This document shows, piece after piece, positions 19,361 through 47,695 of a DNA stretch of 64,000 nt. The notes beneath the pieces were generated by a model. That model searched no databases. It was not told the origin of the DNA and was given only the letters and a program-made list of their open reading frames with translations. The translations under genes and the position numbers were made by a program. The first letter of the stretch is position 1. Each line of letters opens with the position of its first letter. Location: positions 186,001-250,000 of the forward strand of contig NZ_ATVA01000011.1 in NCBI RefSeq assembly GCF_000420485.1, read 5' to 3'. The stretch is from Paucidesulfovibrio longus DSM 6739. GTDB taxonomy: Bacteria; Desulfobacterota; Desulfovibrionia; Desulfovibrionales; Desulfovibrionaceae.

Positions 19361-20497
19361 ATGAACACGAACGATTTCGCGAAACTGAAACTGTTCATCA
19401 CCGGCCCGACCTATTTGCGGGAAGAGGTCCGGCAGGCGGGAATGCTGCCCGAATTCGGGCACCGCGACTCTGAAAACGACAAGCGTTTCAAGCCGATAAT
19501 GGGCTGGCTGCGCGAGCTCACCGATGCGGGCGACGAATATACGCCCGTGCTCTTCCTCGGTTCCGGCTCCACGGCCATGGAATCCTCGATCCGCTCCCTG
19601 GTGGCGGACGGCGAAACCGTGCTCAACGTCTCCGTGGGCGCCTTCGGCGATCTTTACCACACCATGGCCGTGGCCAACGGCAAGTGCGCGGTGCAGCTCA
19701 AGTTCGACTACGGCCAGGCCATCGACCTGGACGTGCTGGAGCGGACCATCATGGAGCACAAGCCCGCCGTGGTCACCTTCACCCACAACGAAACCTCCAC
19801 GGGCGTGACAAGCGACATCCAGGCCGTGTGCGAGCTGGTGCGCCAGTATGACGCCCTGCCCCTGGTGGACGGCGTGTCCATCTTCGGCGGCGCGCCCATC
19901 GGCCTCAAGGGTTCCGGCGCGGCCATGTACAGCACGGCCACCCAGAAGAGCCTGGGGCTGCCCGCGGGCTTCGGCATCGGCTTCATCCATGCCGACGCCG
20001 AGGAAAAGGCGGCCCGCGTGTCCGACAAGGGGCACGGCACCGACATCCTCAAGCAGCTCGGCCGGGCTCGCAAGTTCCAGACCCTGAGCACCCCGAACAC
20101 CACCCTGGCCAACCAGATGTTCGTGCAGCTCAAGTACATCTTCGAGGAAGAGGGCGTGGAGAACCGCTTCGCCCGCCACGCGGCCATGCGCGCGATGGTC
20201 GCGGACTGGGTTGCCGGGCTGCCCGGCTTCGAGCTTTTCGCCCAGGAGGGCCACCGCTCCCCGACCCTGACCACGGTGCTCGTGCCGGAAGGCGTGAGCG
20301 TGAAGCAGCTCAAGGCCGCCAAGGAAAGCATGCGCGCCAAGGGCTACCTCTACGACCCCGGCTACGGCAAGCTGAACACCCTCCTGGAAGAGGCGGGACG
20401 CAGGCCTGTCTTCCGCGTGGGGCACATGGGCGACATCACCCCGGCCATGCTCGAAGAGTATCTGGCCGATCTCGGACAGGTACTTCAGAATCTCTAA
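19361..20497 (+). CDS. Class V aminotransferase, probable phosphoserine aminotransferase
   Basis: 378 residues of the serine-pyruvate/alanine-glyoxylate aminotransferase type. PLP lysine lies in STATQKSLGLPAGFG; GSGSTAMESSIRSL and TFTHNETSTGV surround the cofactor. SerA is 13 nt downstream, so this enzyme most likely converts 3-phosphohydroxypyruvate to phosphoserine in place of a canonical SerC; that role is inferred from the neighbour. Some members act on pyruvate or glyoxylate instead. GAGGA precedes the ATG by 6 nt. Confidence 0.9.
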   Translation: MNTNDFAKLKLFITGPTYLREEVRQAGMLPEFGHRDSENDKRFKPIMGWLRELTDAGDEYTPVLFLGSGSTAMESSIRSLVADGETVLNVSVGAFGDLYHTMAVANGKCAVQLKFDYGQAIDLDVLERTIMEHKPAVVTFTHNETSTGVTSDIQAVCELVRQYDALPLVDGVSIFGGAPIGLKGSGAAMYSTATQKSLGLPAGFGIGFIHADAEEKAARVSDKGHGTDILKQLGRARKFQTLSTPNTTLANQMFVQLKYIFEEEGVENRFARHAAMRAMVADWVAGLPGFELFAQEGHRSPTLTTVLVPEGVSVKQLKAAKESMRAKGYLYDPGYGKLNTLLEEAGRRPVFRVGHMGDITPAMLEEYLADLGQVLQNL

Positions 20498-20510
20498 TCG
20501 GGAGGCCGGA

Positions 20511-21695
20511 ATGCGTATTCTTGCGAACGACGGGCTGGTGGAACAGGCTGCTGACTATCTCCGCAAGGAGGGGTTCAGCGTGGAGACCGAGAAGCGGGAC
20601 ACCGAGGATCTGCTCGGCGAGATCGGCGGCTACGACGCCCTGCTCGTGCGCAGCGCCACCAAGGTCACGCGCGAAGTCCTGGAAGCCGGAACCCGCAACG
20701 GCGGCAAGCTCAAGATCGTGGGCCGCGGCGGCGTGGGCACGGACAATATCGACCTGGAAGCGGCCAAGGAACTGGGCGTCATCGTCAAGTTCGCGCCCAA
20801 CGGCAACACCAACGCCACTGCCGAGCACGCCCTGGGCCTGATGTTCGCCATTGCCCGGCGCGTGCCCCTGGCGCACGAGACGCTCAAGAACGGCGTCTGG
20901 CACAAGAAGCGTTTCGTGGGGGTGGAGCTTCAGGGCAAGACCCTCGGCGTCATCGGCTGCGGGCGCATCGGCCAGTCGCTGGCGGGCAAGGCGCGCGGCA
21001 TCGGCATGAAGGTCATCGGCTACGACGTCTACCACGCCATCGATACCAAGTGCGAGTACGTGGACAGCATGGACGACCTGCTGCGCCAGTCCGACTTCAT
21101 CAGCCTGCACACGGGCGGCAAGGACGCCATCATCACCGCCCGCGAACTGGCCCTGATGAAGCCCACGGCCTATCTGGTCAACGCCTCGCGCGGCAACAAC
21201 GTGGACATCGACGCGCTGCACCACGCGCTTTCCACCGGGATCATCGCGGGCGCGGCCCTGGACTGCTACCCGAGCGAGCCCAAGCGCGAGGGCGAGCCTT
21301 TCCAGACCAAGCTGCACGAGCTGGACAACGTGGTCTTCTCGGCCCACCTGGGCGCGAGCACCAAGAACGCGGGCATCCGCACGGGCATGGAGATCGCCGA
21401 GGTGGTCACGCGCTACCTGCGGCGCGGCGATTTCGGAAATTCCGTGAACGTGGGCGAAACCGTGGAGCAGGAAGGCCAGGCCATCTACACCATTTTCATC
21501 ACCCACGAGGACAAGCCGGGCATGTTCGGCAAGTTCGGCACCGCCCTGGGCGAGATGGGCGTGAACATCCGCGAGAACAACTCCCGCAAGCTCGCGGAAA
21601 GCGTGCAGACCGTCTACATCGTGCACACCAAGCCGGACAAGGCCGTGGTGGAGCGCATCGCCGCCATCGACGGCGTCATCCGCGTGGCTGTCTAG
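20511..21695 (+). CDS. serA: D-3-phosphoglycerate dehydrogenase
   Basis: 394 residues. NAD-binding Rossmann motif GVIGCGRIGQSLAGKARGIG, catalytic Arg in NASRGNNVD, Glu in DCYPSEP and His in SAHLGAS are all present. A C-terminal ACT domain (IYTIFITHEDKPGMFGKFGTALGEMGVNIRE) probably binds serine for feedback control. It makes 3-phosphohydroxypyruvate, the first step of serine synthesis, and is cotranscribed with the class V aminotransferase. GGGAGG precedes the ATG. A bidirectional terminator follows. Confidence 0.95.
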   Translation: MRILANDGLVEQAADYLRKEGFSVETEKRDTEDLLGEIGGYDALLVRSATKVTREVLEAGTRNGGKLKIVGRGGVGTDNIDLEAAKELGVIVKFAPNGNTNATAEHALGLMFAIARRVPLAHETLKNGVWHKKRFVGVELQGKTLGVIGCGRIGQSLAGKARGIGMKVIGYDVYHAIDTKCEYVDSMDDLLRQSDFISLHTGGKDAIITARELALMKPTAYLVNASRGNNVDIDALHHALSTGIIAGAALDCYPSEPKREGEPFQTKLHELDNVVFSAHLGASTKNAGIRTGMEIAEVVTRYLRRGDFGNSVNVGETVEQEGQAIYTIFITHEDKPGMFGKFGTALGEMGVNIRENNSRKLAESVQTVYIVHTKPDKAVVERIAAIDGVIRVAV

Positions 21696-41966: not shown

Positions 41967-43751
41967 TCAGGCCGCGTCGCGCCGCGTCTCGGTGCCGGTG
42001 AGGCGGCGGTCCACCTCCTTGACCTTCTTGAGCACGCTGCGGACGATGCGGCGGAATTCGCCCAGATCGCGCGGCTCGTAGCGCGCCTTGGCCTTTGTCA
42101 GGCCCGCGAGGTCCAGGGTTTCGTTGTAAAGGTAGGGCAGGTAGAGCGGATCCTGATGGATGAAGAGCGATACCTGCTCCATGAGTCCGTGGATTTCGTC
42201 CTGGTTCTTGGCCAGCTTGCGGAAGAGCTTTTCCAGCCGCTTTTCCGCGCGGTGCAGGCTGGAGGTCCAGGAGTTGCTCTGGGGCTCGAACTGGAAATCG
42301 CGATGGCAGGCCGAGCAGAGCGTGAGCCGTTCCAGAAAGTGCTTCAGGCTGCCAGGAGCCGAGGCCAGGGCTCCGGCCATGCGGGCCTCCTCCAGCGACA
42401 CGGCGCGCGCGCCCTGGATGGGGGCGTAGCCGCCGTAGAGATAGGCGATGGGGAAGGGCGTCTGGCGGATGTCGTCCTCCAGGTCGCGCTTGGCCGCGAG
42501 GTACTGCCGCGAGGTGACGATGCTCTCGCCTTCCAGGTTCTGGATTCTGCGGTGGACGCGCTCGTTGAAGACCTTGTTCGTGCCGTGGGCGTGGTGGCCT
42601 TCCACGTGGGAGCCTTCCTCCTTCCAGGCGAAGTCCTGGCCCACGAGGGTGATTCCGGCCACGCCGCACCAGCGCAGCAGCCGGATCAGGGTCAGGCTGA
42701 CGTTGCCGCCCGCGTCCAGGACCAGCTCGTTGTCCTTGAGCACGAAGGTGGCCATGCCGCCCATGGTCCAGAGCGGAATGGTCGGGCCGGGATACGTCTC
42801 CACGACGCGCGGGTCCACCTTGGTGGAATAGATCAGGGGCACGTCGCGGGCGGCCTGCATGTCCAGGCGCTTGTAGATGTCGAGCATCTGCGCGTTGAAG
42901 TCCAGGGCCAGGCAGAAATGGGGCGTCAGGCCCAGGCGCTGGAGCGCGGGCATGGTCTGGAGCGATGTGGCGTAGAGGGCGTTGCCGGGCTGCTCCGCCA
43001 GCTTCGGGGCGAATTCTTCCAGCGAGGGGCCGGCGCCGAGAATCACGGCGGAAAGGCCCTTGGCCGCGCCGCGAAGCGGGGTCACGCTGCCTTCCTCCAT
43101 GGCCCTGCGGAAGTTCTTCAGCTCGTTGCCGACCATGAGATCCTGGCGGAACTTGAGCGTGTTCAGCTCCACGGAGAAGTTTTCCAGCCGGGCCTGGGCC
43201 TTCTTGCTCCAGACCGAATACAGCGGGGAAAGCTGGCTGGAGGGCAGATCCTGGCGCAGGTGGATGCGTCCGTAGATGAACTGGAGTTCCAGGTTCTGGA
43301 CCACGGCGGCGAGATGGTCCTCGCTGGGCGGCAGAAAGTGGAGCTTCTTGGTTGCGAAGGCCGGGCGGTAGTCCGTCTGCCCCAGGCAGCAGTAGAGCTG
43401 CACGGGGTCCGGCTCCAGGACGAGAATCTTATGGGAAATAGGCGTATTGGTGCAGAGGTGGTTGATTCCGTAGCCCAGGTTGCAGCCCACGACGAGGCTC
43501 GCGCCCGTGGCGGCCTTGTCCTGCGGAATCCAGTCGCGGTAGAGTGCCACGGGGGGCATGGACTCGAACATGCCTTTGCCGCTGGGCAGCTTGAGGTCCA
43601 GGAGTCCCCAGCGGTTGTTGAAAACGCGGGCCTCAGCGGCTTCGCGCAACTCCTTGTCGTCGAGCGGCTGCGCGCGCAGCCAGTTGACGAGTTCGGGAGC
43701 GTAGTTATTCAGTGTGTCGAGGTTTCCGTCCAAATGAGGAAGCAGCGTCAT
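41967..43751 (-). CDS. DUF115/MAF family protein (MptE-like fold)
   Basis: 594 residues. Conserved DUF115 core: LSAVILGAGPSLEEFAPKLAEQ, FCLALDFNAQMLDIYKRL, VLDAGGNVSLTLIRLLRWCGV and ITLVGQDFAWKEEGSHVEGHH. An N-terminal MAF-type domain with LVVGCNLGYGINHL and ILVLEPDPVQLY precedes it. In Campylobacter and relatives such motility-accessory-factor proteins transfer nonulosonic acids to flagellin; a flagellin- or polysaccharide-glycosylation role is likely here, though no flagellar gene is nearby. The start at 43751 (AAGGA upstream) is preferred to a TTG six codons earlier. Confidence 0.85.
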   Translation of the reverse strand: MTLLPHLDGNLDTLNNYAPELVNWLRAQPLDDKELREAAEARVFNNRWGLLDLKLPSGKGMFESMPPVALYRDWIPQDKAATGASLVVGCNLGYGINHLCTNTPISHKILVLEPDPVQLYCCLGQTDYRPAFATKKLHFLPPSEDHLAAVVQNLELQFIYGRIHLRQDLPSSQLSPLYSVWSKKAQARLENFSVELNTLKFRQDLMVGNELKNFRRAMEEGSVTPLRGAAKGLSAVILGAGPSLEEFAPKLAEQPGNALYATSLQTMPALQRLGLTPHFCLALDFNAQMLDIYKRLDMQAARDVPLIYSTKVDPRVVETYPGPTIPLWTMGGMATFVLKDNELVLDAGGNVSLTLIRLLRWCGVAGITLVGQDFAWKEEGSHVEGHHAHGTNKVFNERVHRRIQNLEGESIVTSRQYLAAKRDLEDDIRQTPFPIAYLYGGYAPIQGARAVSLEEARMAGALASAPGSLKHFLERLTLCSACHRDFQFEPQSNSWTSSLHRAEKRLEKLFRKLAKNQDEIHGLMEQVSLFIHQDPLYLPYLYNETLDLAGLTKAKARYEPRDLGEFRRIVRSVLKKVKEVDRRLTGTETRRDAA

Positions 43752-43880
43752 GGTTCCGTCCTTGTTCAAGGTTGACGCTCCTGGTCTGCAAGGATCGTGC
43801 TATCGCCTTGCGGGCCGGTCGGATTTGCCGTACACCTCACCCATCATAAACGCTTCAAGCCTTGGAAAACGAGTTTGAAA

Positions 43881-46181
43881 ATGATCTACAAGGACGTTCT
43901 TTCCCGCATCGGCAACACCCCGCTCGTGGAAATCAACAGGCTCAACCCGTTCGCACCGGGCGTCAGCATTCTGGCGAAAATCGAGTGCGTGAATCCGGGC
44001 GGCTCCATCAAGGACCGGGTGGCGTTGTGTATGATCGAGGCGGCGGAGCGCTCCGGCGAGCTGACCCCGGACAAGACCATCATCGAGGCCACCAGCGGCA
44101 ATACCGGCATCGGCCTGGCCATGGTCGCGGCGGTCAAGGGCTACAAGATCACGCTGCTCATGAGCGAGCGCGCCTCGGAAGAGCGCAAGATGATCGTCCA
44201 GGCCTTCGGCGCGGACATCCTGCTCACCCCCGGCCACCTTTCCACGGACGGGGCCATCGAGAAGGCCTACCGCATGGCCCGGGAGGAGCCGGACAAATAC
44301 GTGCTCATGGACCAGTTCAACAACACGTCCTCCATCGAGGCCCACTACAAGGGCACGGGCCTGGAGATCTGGGAGCAGACCGGAGGCGCGGTCACGCATG
44401 TGGTCGTGACCCTCGGCACCACCGGAACCTGCATGGGCATCACCAAGCGCATGCGGGAAATGAACCCCGACGTGCAGGTGGTGGCCGTGGAACCCCATGC
44501 CGGGCACAAGCTCCAGGGCCTGAAGAACATGCACGAATCCTACCCGCCGGGAATCTGGGACAAGAAGGCTCCGGACCGGGTCATGCGCATCGAGGACGAC
44601 ATCGCCTTCGAGTATTGCCGCAGGCTCGCGCGGGAGGAGGGCATCTTCGCGGGCATGAGTTCCGGCGCGGCCCTGGCCGCCAGCGTACGCTTGGCCGAAG
44701 AGCTGGCCGCGCAGGGGCGCGGGGCCAAGATCGTGACCATCTTCCCGGACTCCGGGGAACGCTATCTCTCCACCCCGCTCTTTTCCCTGGCGGCGGCCAA
44801 GGGCCTCAAGCTGCGCAACGCGGCCACGGGAACCGGCGTGACCATCGGCACCAGCGGGACTCGCGGGCTCTACGCCGTGGGGCCGAGCATGGACCGTCCC
44901 GACGACGCCGGAGCCTGGCGGCGGGCCGTGCTGCTCGACGTGCTGGCCCGCGCCCTTGAGGAACGCGGCGCAGCCGTGAGCGCGGCCATCGGCCTGACGG
45001 ACATGGACGACCGCACCCTGGAAGCGGCGCGTGCTTCGGGCGGGAGCCGTGCCAAGTACGCCGAGGCTGTGCGCGCCCGGATCAAGGAGCGCGCCCGGAT
45101 GCTCGGCATGCGCGAAGGCACGGCCTTTCCCCTGGCTTCCGGCTCCGCGGCCAAGTGCGTGGAGCTGACCCGCAAGCTGACGGAAAAGGGGCTGGCCTAC
45201 GAGAAACTGCGTAGCGTCTACTTCGACGTGCTGCGGGACGAACGCTACGGAGCCATGGCCCTTCAGGATCCGGACAAGATTTCCGCGGGCAAGACCGTGG
45301 ACCTGGACGACTACGTCAAGTCCAACCCCCTGGATTTCACATTGCTCAAGCGCGCCAGCCTCCAGGATCTCAAGGAAGGCGAAGTCTTTGAGACGGCCTG
45401 GGGCAACGTGCGGCCCACGTGGTTCCTTCAGGTGGCCGCTGCCGGGCTCGACGCGCTGCCTTCGGTGGACGTCTTTCTCGCCGACGAATCCCAGAGCTTT
45501 CCGCATCTGGAGAATCTGCGCGCGCTCTGGTCCGCCGCGGGCCGGGAGGTCCAGGCCTGGATCCTGGGCCAGCAGGCCGTGGCCGAGGACGGGCTGGAGT
45601 TCGGCGACTTGCTGGCCGAGGCCGAGCATCCGTTGGCCCTGCGCATGTGGCTGCTTTCGGGTTCCTATCACAAGACCCTGACCGCCACCCGGCAGGCCGT
45701 GGAAATGTGGTCCAGGAACTGGCGGCGCGTGCAGGACGCGGCCGCGACCCTGGCCCTGGCCCAGTCCGCGCCGGGAGACGACGTGCCCCAGCCCGCGGAG
45801 CAGGCCGTGTTCGATCTCAAGAGAGGGCTGGCCGAAGCGTTGGACAACGATTTCGGGCTGCACCGCTTCTGGACGGCGCTGTTCAAGTTCGTCAAGGACG
45901 TGCACCAGCTCGAATCCGCCGGACGGCTCACGGGCGCCGCGGCCAAGGCCTGCCTTCGCCAGCTTCGCGCCGTGGACCGGGTGCTCGGCATTCTCGACGA
46001 AAACACGCTGCCGCTGCTGCTCGCGGATTTGCCCGAAGAGGTCCGCGCCCTGGTGGGCAAGCGGCAGGCGGCGCGGGAAGCCAAGGATTTCGCCGCCTCG
46101 GACGCCCTGCGCGACGAGCTGGCGGCCAAGGGCTACCGGGTCGAGGACTCGGCCAAGGGACCGCGCATCTTCCGCGCCTAG
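43881..46181 (+). CDS. Cysteine synthase fused to a degenerate cysteinyl-tRNA-synthetase-like domain
   Basis: 766 residues. Residues 1 to about 310 are a complete O-acetylserine sulfhydrylase: PLP lysine K44 in GSIKDRV, TSGNTGIG, and GTTGTCMGI for the PLP phosphate. From about 325 to the end the chain follows CysRS: YAVGPSMD, LTDMDDRTLEAA, VYFDVLRDERYG, NPLDFTLLKRA, FPHLEN, and the end EAKDFAASDALRDELAAKGY. The HIGH site reads DDAGAW, KMSKS is deleted, and zinc ligands Cys28 and Cys209 (E. coli numbering) are Val; one His/Glu pair remains. It therefore cannot charge tRNA by the known mechanism. The ATG at 43881 has a poor SD. It is monocistronic, with a terminator at its end. Confidence 0.92.
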   Translation: MIYKDVLSRIGNTPLVEINRLNPFAPGVSILAKIECVNPGGSIKDRVALCMIEAAERSGELTPDKTIIEATSGNTGIGLAMVAAVKGYKITLLMSERASEERKMIVQAFGADILLTPGHLSTDGAIEKAYRMAREEPDKYVLMDQFNNTSSIEAHYKGTGLEIWEQTGGAVTHVVVTLGTTGTCMGITKRMREMNPDVQVVAVEPHAGHKLQGLKNMHESYPPGIWDKKAPDRVMRIEDDIAFEYCRRLAREEGIFAGMSSGAALAASVRLAEELAAQGRGAKIVTIFPDSGERYLSTPLFSLAAAKGLKLRNAATGTGVTIGTSGTRGLYAVGPSMDRPDDAGAWRRAVLLDVLARALEERGAAVSAAIGLTDMDDRTLEAARASGGSRAKYAEAVRARIKERARMLGMREGTAFPLASGSAAKCVELTRKLTEKGLAYEKLRSVYFDVLRDERYGAMALQDPDKISAGKTVDLDDYVKSNPLDFTLLKRASLQDLKEGEVFETAWGNVRPTWFLQVAAAGLDALPSVDVFLADESQSFPHLENLRALWSAAGREVQAWILGQQAVAEDGLEFGDLLAEAEHPLALRMWLLSGSYHKTLTATRQAVEMWSRNWRRVQDAAATLALAQSAPGDDVPQPAEQAVFDLKRGLAEALDNDFGLHRFWTALFKFVKDVHQLESAGRLTGAAAKACLRQLRAVDRVLGILDENTLPLLLADLPEEVRALVGKRQAAREAKDFAASDALRDELAAKGYRVEDSAKGPRIFRA

Positions 46182-46223
46182 GCTCGACCGGGGCGGAGGC
46201 GCAAGCCTCCATCGACAGTACGC

Positions 46224-46256
46224 AAAAGGGCGGAACCGCGCGGTTCCGCCCTTTTT
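46224..46256. terminator. Bidirectional intrinsic terminator
   Basis: Perfect inverted repeat AAAAGGGCGGAACCGC / GCGGTTCCGCCCTTTTT between the cysteine synthase fusion gene and the convergent uraA. Confidence 0.92.
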
Positions 46257-46285
46257 AATGGTTGAAGCGGGGTGGGTGTCCCGTT

Positions 46286-47695
46286 CTATTCGTTGCAGTC
46301 CTTGCAGGGCAGAACCAGGTTCAGCAGCACGCCCACGATGCCCGCGAGGCCGATGCCGCCCATCTGGAGCTGGCCGATGCTGATGTCCGCGCCGAAGATG
46401 TCGGCGATGGCGTTGATCGGGCCGCTCAGGGGCACGGTCAGCCCGCCGATGCCGACCACGAGGATGATGCCCACGATGGCCATGTTGCGCGGCAGCATGA
46501 GGTCGTGTCCGGCCCGGACCAGGGTGTTGATGCCGATGGTGGTGATGGCGCCGAAGAGCAGGACCATGATGCCGCCCATGACCGGGGTGGGCACGGTCTG
46601 GAGCAGGCCGCCGAGCTTGCCCACGAAGGCCAGGAGCACGGCGGAGATGGCGGCCCAGGTCATGATCGCGGGGTTGAACGCGCGGGTCAGGGCCACGGCG
46701 CCGGAAACCTCGGAGTAGGTGGTGTTCGGAGGACCGCCGAGCAGGGCCGCCAGAGAGGTGGCCAGGCCGTCGCCGAGCAGGGTGTTCTTGATGCCGGGAT
46801 CCTTGACGTAGTCCTTGCCCGTGATGCCGCTGATGGCCAGCACGTCGCCGAAGTGCTCGATGGACGGGGCGATGGCCACGGGCACGATGTAGAGCACGGC
46901 GGCCCAGTTCCAGTTGCTCCAGCTGGGGAAGGAGAAGTTCGGAACGGCGAACCAGGGGGCGTCCTTGAGGGAGCTGAGGTTCACGAGATGGTCGCCGGCC
47001 ACGCTGAAGAGCAGGGTGGCTCCGGCGGCCTCCTTGGCCGCGCGCTCGGCGGTGAACTGGGCCAGGGCCGAAGCGGTGAAGCCCGTGGCGTCCAGAAGCA
47101 CGGCCGTGCCGTAGCCCGCGAGGATGCCGCAGAGGATGGGCACGAGCTTGAACCAGCCCTTGCCCAGCAGGGAGACGAGGATGGTGGTCAGCAGGGCGAC
47201 CACGGCGCAGATGGCCGCGGCCTTGGGCACGGCCAGCACGATGCTGGCGTCGCCGCCCAGGCCCATGGACATGTTCACGGCCACCGGGGCCAGGAACAGG
47301 CCGATGACCATGATCACCGGGCCGGTGACCACCGGGGGCAGGATGCGGGCCAGGGCCGCGTTGCCGCGCCAGCGGATGATCAGGCTCAGGATAACGTAGA
47401 GCAGGCCTGCGGCGAAGAGGCCGCAGAGCGTGCCCTCGATGCCCCATTCCTTCACGCCGTAGCCGATGGGCGCGATGAAGGCGAAGGACGAGGCCAGGAA
47501 CACGGGCACCTTGCCCTTGGTGACGACCTGGAACAGCAGCGTGCCTGCTCCGGCGGTGAACAGGGCCACGTTCGGGTCCATGCCCACCAGCAGGGGCACG
47601 AGAACCAGCGCGCCGAAAGCCACAAACAGCATCTGCGCGCCGAGAATCCCGTCTTTCAATCGGAAATTGTACTCAGTCGAATGAACGTTGCTCAT
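46286..47695 (-). CDS. uraA: Uracil permease (NCS2 family)
   Basis: 469 residues, 14-helix NCS2 transporter. Diagnostic segments are SIEHFGDVLAISGITGKDYV (Glu of the uracil site), GDGLATSLAALLGGPPNTTYSE and TPVMGGIMVLLFGAI. It imports uracil with protons. The gene lies 57 nt downstream of upp on the same strand, but a hairpin-T structure sits between them. SD AGGAGGAG is strong. The end carries CKDCNE, an unusual Cys pair. Confidence 0.95.
   Translation of the reverse strand: MSNVHSTEYNFRLKDGILGAQMLFVAFGALVLVPLLVGMDPNVALFTAGAGTLLFQVVTKGKVPVFLASSFAFIAPIGYGVKEWGIEGTLCGLFAAGLLYVILSLIIRWRGNAALARILPPVVTGPVIMVIGLFLAPVAVNMSMGLGGDASIVLAVPKAAAICAVVALLTTILVSLLGKGWFKLVPILCGILAGYGTAVLLDATGFTASALAQFTAERAAKEAAGATLLFSVAGDHLVNLSSLKDAPWFAVPNFSFPSWSNWNWAAVLYIVPVAIAPSIEHFGDVLAISGITGKDYVKDPGIKNTLLGDGLATSLAALLGGPPNTTYSEVSGAVALTRAFNPAIMTWAAISAVLLAFVGKLGGLLQTVPTPVMGGIMVLLFGAITTIGINTLVRAGHDLMLPRNMAIVGIILVVGIGGLTVPLSGPINAIADIFGADISIGQLQMGGIGLAGIVGVLLNLVLPCKDCNE

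Follow-up and report, generated by a model that had tools for sequence, protein, structure and literature searches.

GCN2 carries a degenerate histidyl-tRNA synthetase domain that senses uncharged tRNA. In the HisZ-HisG system, as described in passages of PMC9437257, a tRNA synthetase paralogue without aminoacylation activity serves an enzyme in the biosynthesis of its own amino acid. Here we report on a gene that resembles each of these systems in part. The window, by which we mean the whole 64,000-nucleotide stretch of Paucidesulfovibrio longus DSM 6739 that was analysed (order Desulfovibrionales; contig NZ_ATVA01000011.1, positions 186,001 to 250,000), holds at 43881..46181, on the forward strand like all window features given below, an uninterrupted frame of 766 codons plus stop, with the same start as in a relative (L007), in which a cysteine synthase is covalently tied to a catalytically degenerate copy of the tRNA synthetase for the same amino acid, cysteinyl-tRNA synthetase (CysRS). 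Overall, we favor the reading that this is a CysE-independent, CysM-type synthase, probably acting on O-phosphoserine, whose pseudo-CysRS half would bind tRNA-Cys and couple cysteine synthesis to tRNA-Cys status. We hold this reading tentatively, at a probability of roughly 0.4, and we infer the tRNA binding, the gating, its direction and the identity of the acceptor alike from sequence. Searches of open-licence PMC papers aimed at the fusion turned up no description of it.

That the gene fuses a cysteine synthase to a degenerate CysRS had been proposed in an earlier note on this DNA, and the frame, the Pfam domains, the fold and the motif losses all bear this out. Pfam finds PALP at residues 8-290 (1.5e-69), then the CysRS catalytic domain at 329-555 (1.3e-26) and, third in order, the CysS_C anticodon domain at 716-759 (3.5e-8), while a DALR_2 match falls below its cut-off. 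The pseudo-catalytic domain, Rossmann plus connective peptide, is placed at 44802..45545 by the PF01406 match and the predicted fold. Searched by sequence against the PDB, the second half matches CysRS structures best, and the tRNA-Cys complex of the E. coli enzyme is one of these. An AlphaFold2 model of the full protein, built from an alignment of 19 fusions (predicted local distance difference test score, pLDDT, 83), superposes over residues 307-711 on CysRS 8qhp (Z 39.2, 387 residues) and over residues 308-766 on the tRNA-bound CysRS 1u0b (Z 37.7, 426 residues, root-mean-square deviation 5.7). Folded alone (pLDDT 86), the second half gives Z 35.0 to 8qhp and 33.3 to 1u0b over 402 residues; by family, CysRS score 31-35, MshC 31-33 and MetRS at most 24.5. 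The predicted structure thus has the CysRS fold over its whole length, and the superposition on CysRS that the note had anticipated is obtained with Z up to 39.2.

In alignment with canonical CysRS, Val333 (44877..44879) stands at the position of zinc ligand Cys28, residues D342-A345 (DAGA, 44904..44915) at that of HIGH, and Val518 (45432..45434) at that of zinc ligand Cys209. KMSKS and its loop are deleted at the junction of residues 570/571 (45588..45593), in a region whose length varies between species. These are the losses that had been claimed, and to them we add the replacement of Glu238 (E. coli numbering) by Leu, so that of the four zinc ligands only His234 is kept. The score against the CysRS model TIGR00435 is 137.4 bits for a cut-off of 340, and a separate, complete cysS with HIGH and KMSKS (3.9e-137) was indeed found on another contig of the same genome (G000:C18). 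Sequencing errors are ruled out, since the losses are shared by all 19 aligned fusions of the order, the window's included.

Our motif comparison covered 19 fusions of the order, 38 fusions outside it and 28 canonical CysRS. The order set consists of 23 loci (L007-L029) less L016, L022, L023, L027 and L028, which are incomplete or N-filled, plus the window. The wider set derives from 47 loci, minus two that are not fusions (L143 and L158), three in a wrong frame (L152, L100 and L108), the short L153 and the duplicates L103, L104 and L106; the canonical set comprises 28 of 30 loci. The second KMSKS lysine is present in none of the 57 fusions versus 28/28 canonical enzymes, and the histidine at the fourth HIGH position in 0/19 order fusions, 4/38 other fusions and 28/28 canonical CysRS. 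Among 111 near-invariant canonical columns, 45 are lost in all 19 order fusions. These motifs suggest that the pseudo-CysRS no longer activates cysteine. Selenocysteine was considered as well and rejected, the in-frame TGA of L159-L161 sitting at the domain end, where it reads as a stop codon.

The anticodon end presents a different picture. In E. coli CysRS, according to passages of PMC12684709, G34 is touched by Arg427, Asp436 and Trp432, and Arg423 takes part in a water network. The CysS_C domain of the window protein (46026..46157) has R728, R732, F737 and D741 at the positions of E. coli R423, R427, W432 and D436, and the phenylalanine at 432 also occurs in 11/28 canonical CysRS. Across the 57 fusions, the equivalents of Arg423, Asp436, Arg439 and Asp451 are kept without exception, 50 have R and 7 have K at position 427, and position 432 is always aromatic. 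Near-invariant canonical columns survive in at least 18 of the 19 order fusions at 5/7 positions of the anticodon domain, 28/95 of the catalytic part and 0/9 of the stem, small numbers in each case. This pattern indicates that loss was selective, with the activation signature gone and the anticodon-reading residues kept in all 57, and the retained residues point to tRNA-Cys. The graded loss, of adenylation motifs, later of zinc ligands and in 0/57 of the anticodon residues, offers a natural series in which to study the function of a pseudo-synthetase.

The main rival explanation, which we regard as possible if unlikely, is that the CysRS fold acts as a structural partner, a scaffold for oligomerization or stability, in which the anticodon residues are conserved for the integrity of the small C-terminal domain. 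Eight fusion-specific near-invariant residues (P335, R348, S445, D449, T472, Y478, R491 and K498), which in our reading lie in the former active-site helix and the connective peptide, could form a contact face for the synthase, R348, T472, Y478, R491 and K498 being examples. The ratio of nonsynonymous to synonymous substitution rates (dN/dS) over five pairs from the order is 0.12-0.23 in the second half and 0.04-0.15 in the first, hence 1.5-3 times as high in the C-terminal half, as a scaffold would also accommodate; of these pairs two share a sequence and two have dS above 1. Nevertheless, values of this size show that the second half is under purifying selection, and a scaffold need not keep Arg423 and Asp436, R or K at 427 and an aromatic residue at 432 in all 57 fusions, given that 45 of the 111 canonical columns have disappeared from every fusion of the order.

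The zinc site bears on a second alternative. Cys28 is found in 0/19 order fusions, 33/38 other fusions and 28/28 canonical CysRS, Cys209 in 0/19, 36/38 and 28/28, and Glu238 in 0/19, 26/38 and 28/28, with His234 kept in all (38/38 outside the order). Thus the loss of the zinc cysteines, as originally claimed, holds in the window and its order but is not general to the fusion family. Because the KMSKS lysine is absent everywhere, and the zinc cysteines and Glu238 are absent throughout only in the order, loss of the adenylation signature probably preceded that of the zinc site, which would have occurred on the branch leading to Desulfovibrionales. L170, L177 and L107, the fusions nearest in the tree to the Desulfovibrionales clade, have already lost at least one zinc residue and may be stepping stones of this degeneration. 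Since the zinc residues mostly persist outside the order, a thiol-binding zinc site may persist there too, and the second half might be a product sensor in the manner of HisZ (for that precedent, see passages of PMC9437257), its old active site binding cysteine and feeding back on the synthase. For the window, we consider this quite unlikely: both cysteines and Glu238 are lost in 19/19 order fusions, which excludes cysteine binding through zinc as the function here, and a product sensor leaves the retention of the anticodon residues unexplained. The earlier note had set the protein apart from HisZ-HisG over the missing zinc. That contrast is sound for the window's order, but the likeness is closer elsewhere in the phylum because the zinc cysteines are mostly kept there.

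Some fusions outside the order retain HLG and KKMSR, and the fold resembles that of MshC with Z 32.8. In principle, then, the second half could still weakly activate cysteine and join it to another molecule, as a ligase of the MshC kind would. With 48.4 bits against the MshC model TIGR03447 (cut-off 485.1), and no trace of HIGH or KMSKS in any of the 19 order fusions, this appears extremely improbable.

Turning to the synthase half, K44, TSGNTG and GTTGT are all present as claimed, and the cysteine synthase is intact; the type assigned to it needs revision, as scores place it nearer CysM than CysK (TIGR01138 349 bits, TIGR01139 319 bits). The CysM-type domain (residues 1-302, 43881..44786) scores 357.7 bits against the cysteine synthase subfamily model TIGR01136 (cut-off 344.15) and has its best PDB sequence matches in E. 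coli and Salmonella CysM, and its 348.8 bits against the cysM equivalog TIGR01138 fall below the cut-off of 394.2. Lys44 (44010..44012), which we take to be the lysine that binds pyridoxal phosphate, lies in NPGGS[IV]K in 57/57 fusions read. At residues 209-225 (44505..44555), the substrate loop HKLQGLKNMHESYPPGI replaces the GPH..QGIGAGF loop of CysK, the form of CysK in the CysE complex, which is absent from the window fusion. In the alignment, the loop is of GLKN or GMKN type, with no insertion, in 57/57 fusions, and of QGIGA type in 27/27 standalone CysK read in the order, with no overlap between the two. The fusion is the sole cysteine synthase above the family cut-off in the window's genome.

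The distribution of CysE agrees with the loop type. We defined long CysE as a match at E<1e-40, and sampled 297 genomes of the order and 62 further genomes of the phylum. In the order, long CysE is absent from 22/22 genomes that have no synthase match besides the fusion, present in 131/131 where the fusion accompanies further synthase matches, and present in 120/126 with a synthase but no fusion (Fisher p 1.6e-27 for 22/22 versus 6/257 lacking CysE, with kinship ignored). In the phylum sample, it is absent in 25/25 fusion-only genomes, present in 18/18 with a fusion and a strong CysK, and present in 13/17 fusion-free genomes (absent in G306, G308, G312 and G335). Pooling the two samples, 47/47 fusion-only genomes are without long CysE and 149/149 with further synthase matches have it. 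The fusion-only genomes span 14 genera and 4 families in the order and 16 families in the phylum sample. Both states occur within four genera of the order and within three families of the phylum sample, and every one of these is concordant.

These counts depend on some assignments. From the fusion-only set of the order we left out G079, which has a standalone CysK as its single match, and the 43% complete G051; G033, with three matches, none strong, and two pseudo-CysRS copies, was counted in it. "Further synthase match" refers to match counts; of 28 standalone candidates read in the order, 27 are of CysK type and one is a truncated fusion, to which G282 is added. G282 and G060, among the 131, have no strong second synthase match, the one in G282 being a contig-cut QGIGA-type CysK beside CysE. 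Six genomes of the order (G025, G242, G248, G261, G271 and G275) are exceptions, in which a synthase is matched but neither the fusion nor a long CysE is called, and the synthase of G025 is the truncated fusion. Sixteen genomes of the order have no synthase match at all, with CysE absent in 9 and present in 7. In the wider sample, G421 and G423 carry the fusion and an extra or broken synthase without CysE, and are left out of both the 25 and the 18. The standalone synthase of G423 (G423:C38:26488-27383) is split over two frames and is perhaps a decaying CysK.

A C-terminal isoleucine tail is how CysE docks on CysK. The two long CysE that we scanned score above the cut-off of the EpsC serine acetyltransferase model and end in isoleucine, and by coordinates CysE often adjoins CysK. 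Given the absence of CysE from fusion-only genomes, together with a loop that is not that of CysK, the fusion is probably independent of O-acetylserine made by CysE. In this context, the 47 genomes would have a route to cysteine without a recognizable long CysE. Among the roles first proposed for the second half, allosteric or tRNA binding is still the best class, but binding of CysE is unsupported, and docking of CysE by the fusion was rejected on that absence and the missing GPH..QGIGAGF loop.

If CysE does not provide the acceptor, the likeliest substitute is O-phosphoserine, in analogy to the CysM of M. tuberculosis, whose PDB entry 3dki is titled an O-phosphoserine-dependent synthase; the acceptor is thus probably O-phosphoserine rather than O-acetylserine. 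A possible supply is encoded in the window itself. A class V aminotransferase at 19361..20497 (PF00266 73 bits, with a weak SerC match) is a candidate phosphoserine transaminase; its best NCBIfam match is PhnW-AepZ (144 bits, below cut-off), with 38.6 bits for serC_3. Directly downstream, at 20511..21695, lies a SerA-like phosphoglycerate dehydrogenase (TIGR01327 330 bits, below the cut-off of 454). The pair could supply phosphoserine, and is a candidate link to the fusion only. According to GapMind, the serine route of D. vulgaris is unresolved (passages of PMC7311316), and the window pair (19361-21695) may belong to that serine or phosphoserine route.

The fusion is widespread and appears to have arisen once. 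Peptides of the window protein, a query that picks up close relatives only, matched named genomes at 24 loci, 23 with a synthase of the fusion type and all of these matching into the second half except L027, at a contig end; L030 has the synthase only, with no match to the second half. The relatives belong to Desulfovibrio, Humidesulfovibrio, Pseudodesulfovibrio, Desulfohalobiaceae, Desulfonatronospira, Desulfonatronovibrio, Desulfothermus (Desulfovibrionales, Thermodesulfobacteriota in NCBI) and unassigned bins. A pseudo-synthetase profile matches 155/297 order genomes more strongly than canonical CysRS does, with the threshold for calling a fusion in the order set between 1e-62 and 1e-70. 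At the scale of the phylum, the profile matches 146/395 genomes at 1e-70. Of these, 140 lie outside the order, where the listed open frames have 740-929 residues, and one 1403, the length expected of the fusion; 38 of the matches outside the order were read and kept as fusions, and 45 were seen with a cysteine synthase match. In a tree of 85 CysRS domains, a quick search without bootstrap rooted on the canonical rows, the split of canonical enzymes from fusions has an approximate likelihood-ratio support (SH-aLRT) of 100, and the order's fusions are one clade nested within those of the phylum (SH-aLRT 100, long branch of 1.28). The tree indicates that the 57 fusions read form one clade of single origin. 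Sampled genomes of genera g3, g6, g10, g15 and g17 of the order are without the fusion, and most carry CysK and CysE, which suggests loss or replacement of the fusion. A second fusion copy in G256 (L187 797-3106, minus strand) has its synthase and pseudo-CysRS parts in different frames.

Several observations weigh against the proposal of a CysE-independent synthase governed by tRNA-Cys. E. coli CysM uses O-acetylserine. The CysM of C. jejuni likewise takes O-acetylserine and not O-phosphoserine (passages of PMC9855970), and therefore a CysM-type loop is no proof of phosphoserine use. Canonical SerC had to be rejected as the phosphoserine source, being found in just 2/22 genomes searched (20 fusion-only, 2 with CysK), with only weak matches in 17 more. 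The search for CysE is soft, in that the TIGR01172 cut-off is passed by 0/297 order and 7/62 phylum genomes; four fusion-only genomes (G000, G017, G022 and G347) have a weak, shorter CysE match (3e-31 to 2e-34), and the place of CysE could be taken by an acetyltransferase from a different family. No fusion match is found in 142/297 genomes of the order. Within the anticodon domain, Trp487 (numbering of the genome's own cysS) is lost in 19/19 order fusions, and the residues that remain could be conserved partly for structure. With 120.5 bits, the single CysE-like match of the window's genome reaches neither the EpsC cut-off (150) nor that for cysE (211); it is a 197-residue acetyltransferase (L092 1408-1998, minus strand) that, in our reading, stands between sulfotransferase-like and glycosyltransferase-like frames.

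The presence of tRNA-reading-head residues and a beta-replacement enzyme in one chain, with CysE dispensable, also brings to mind a more direct use of tRNA. Here the pseudo-CysRS would present tRNA-Cys to the CysM domain, whose substrate would be a serine derivative carried on the tRNA, or cysteine would be passed directly to the tRNA or to CysRS, and SepCysS offers a precedent for chemistry on tRNA-bound phosphoserine (passages of PMC5424206). If true, this would be a second, SepCysS-independent way of making cysteine on or for tRNA in bacteria. We nevertheless judge it very unlikely, as a canonical cysS is present, the synthase domain resembles an ordinary CysM, and the fusion, with HIGH and KMSKS gone, is unlikely to load tRNA itself.

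Coupling of synthesis to tRNA-Cys status can be pictured as follows. Consider a pseudo-CysRS that has lost cysteine activation and retained the head that reads the anticodon of tRNA-Cys. It would bind tRNA-Cys, most usefully in its uncharged form, and binding would raise or localize the activity of the attached synthase. Uncharged tRNA-Cys would then be the signal of cysteine shortage that switches synthesis up, and the supply of cysteine would track the demand of translation, following a logic like that of GCN2 and HisZ-HisG. Outside the order, cysteine sensing could add to this tRNA role; in the window's order it hardly could. If the tRNA head works, a single protein would couple cysteine synthesis to tRNA-Cys status in anaerobes exposed to sulfide.

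Operon context was considered as a hint to function and set aside, the recurring neighbors in the 24 loci being MptE-like (DUF115-type, divergent in the window), PAP2 and PMT-family genes, with PAP2 and PMT clusters in 15/24; no cysteine gene was prominent among the neighbor clusters listed, in a family search limited to the window's neighbors. A scan of 43000-46700 for RNA elements gave none at gathering score and one chance match to mir-2. In genome G316, a separate CysRS-like protein (L185 2463-4688, plus strand) with HLGN, KMAKS and its zinc residues kept continues into a family-2 glycosyltransferase (PF00535 44.9 bits), an arrangement reminiscent of MshC-type chemistry.

Among described systems, DVU0663 of D. 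vulgaris may be the same fusion. That gene is called cysK in passages of PMC3431258. The first half is closest to CysM and O-phosphoserine sulfhydrylase (E. coli 2v03 over residues 3-303 and M. tuberculosis 3dki over 2-306, Z 38.4 each), which unlike the fusion are stand-alone proteins of about 300 residues without a synthetase domain. MshC, similar in fold, is likewise derived from CysRS and works outside translation, but it is not known to be fused to a synthase. It is, moreover, an active ligase of actinobacteria (passages of PMC9437257). The same passages describe CysRS* of Desulfobacterales, also a non-canonical CysRS in related sulfate reducers, which lacks the anticodon domain and charges SelC*, whereas the anticodon domain is the very part that the fusion has kept. 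HisZ, of class II, forms a subunit of its own and works at the first step of its pathway; the fusion is built on class I CysRS, is covalent, stands at the last step, and in the window's order has lost its zinc site while keeping the anticodon head. GCN2 shares with the fusion the joining of a degenerate synthetase domain to an effector enzyme, and is eukaryotic, of class II and coupled to a kinase, whereas tRNA sensing by the fusion is a proposal. By motif and score, the protein is neither a functional CysRS, nor MshC, nor the CysK of a CysE complex, and it belongs with neither HisZ-HisG nor GCN2.

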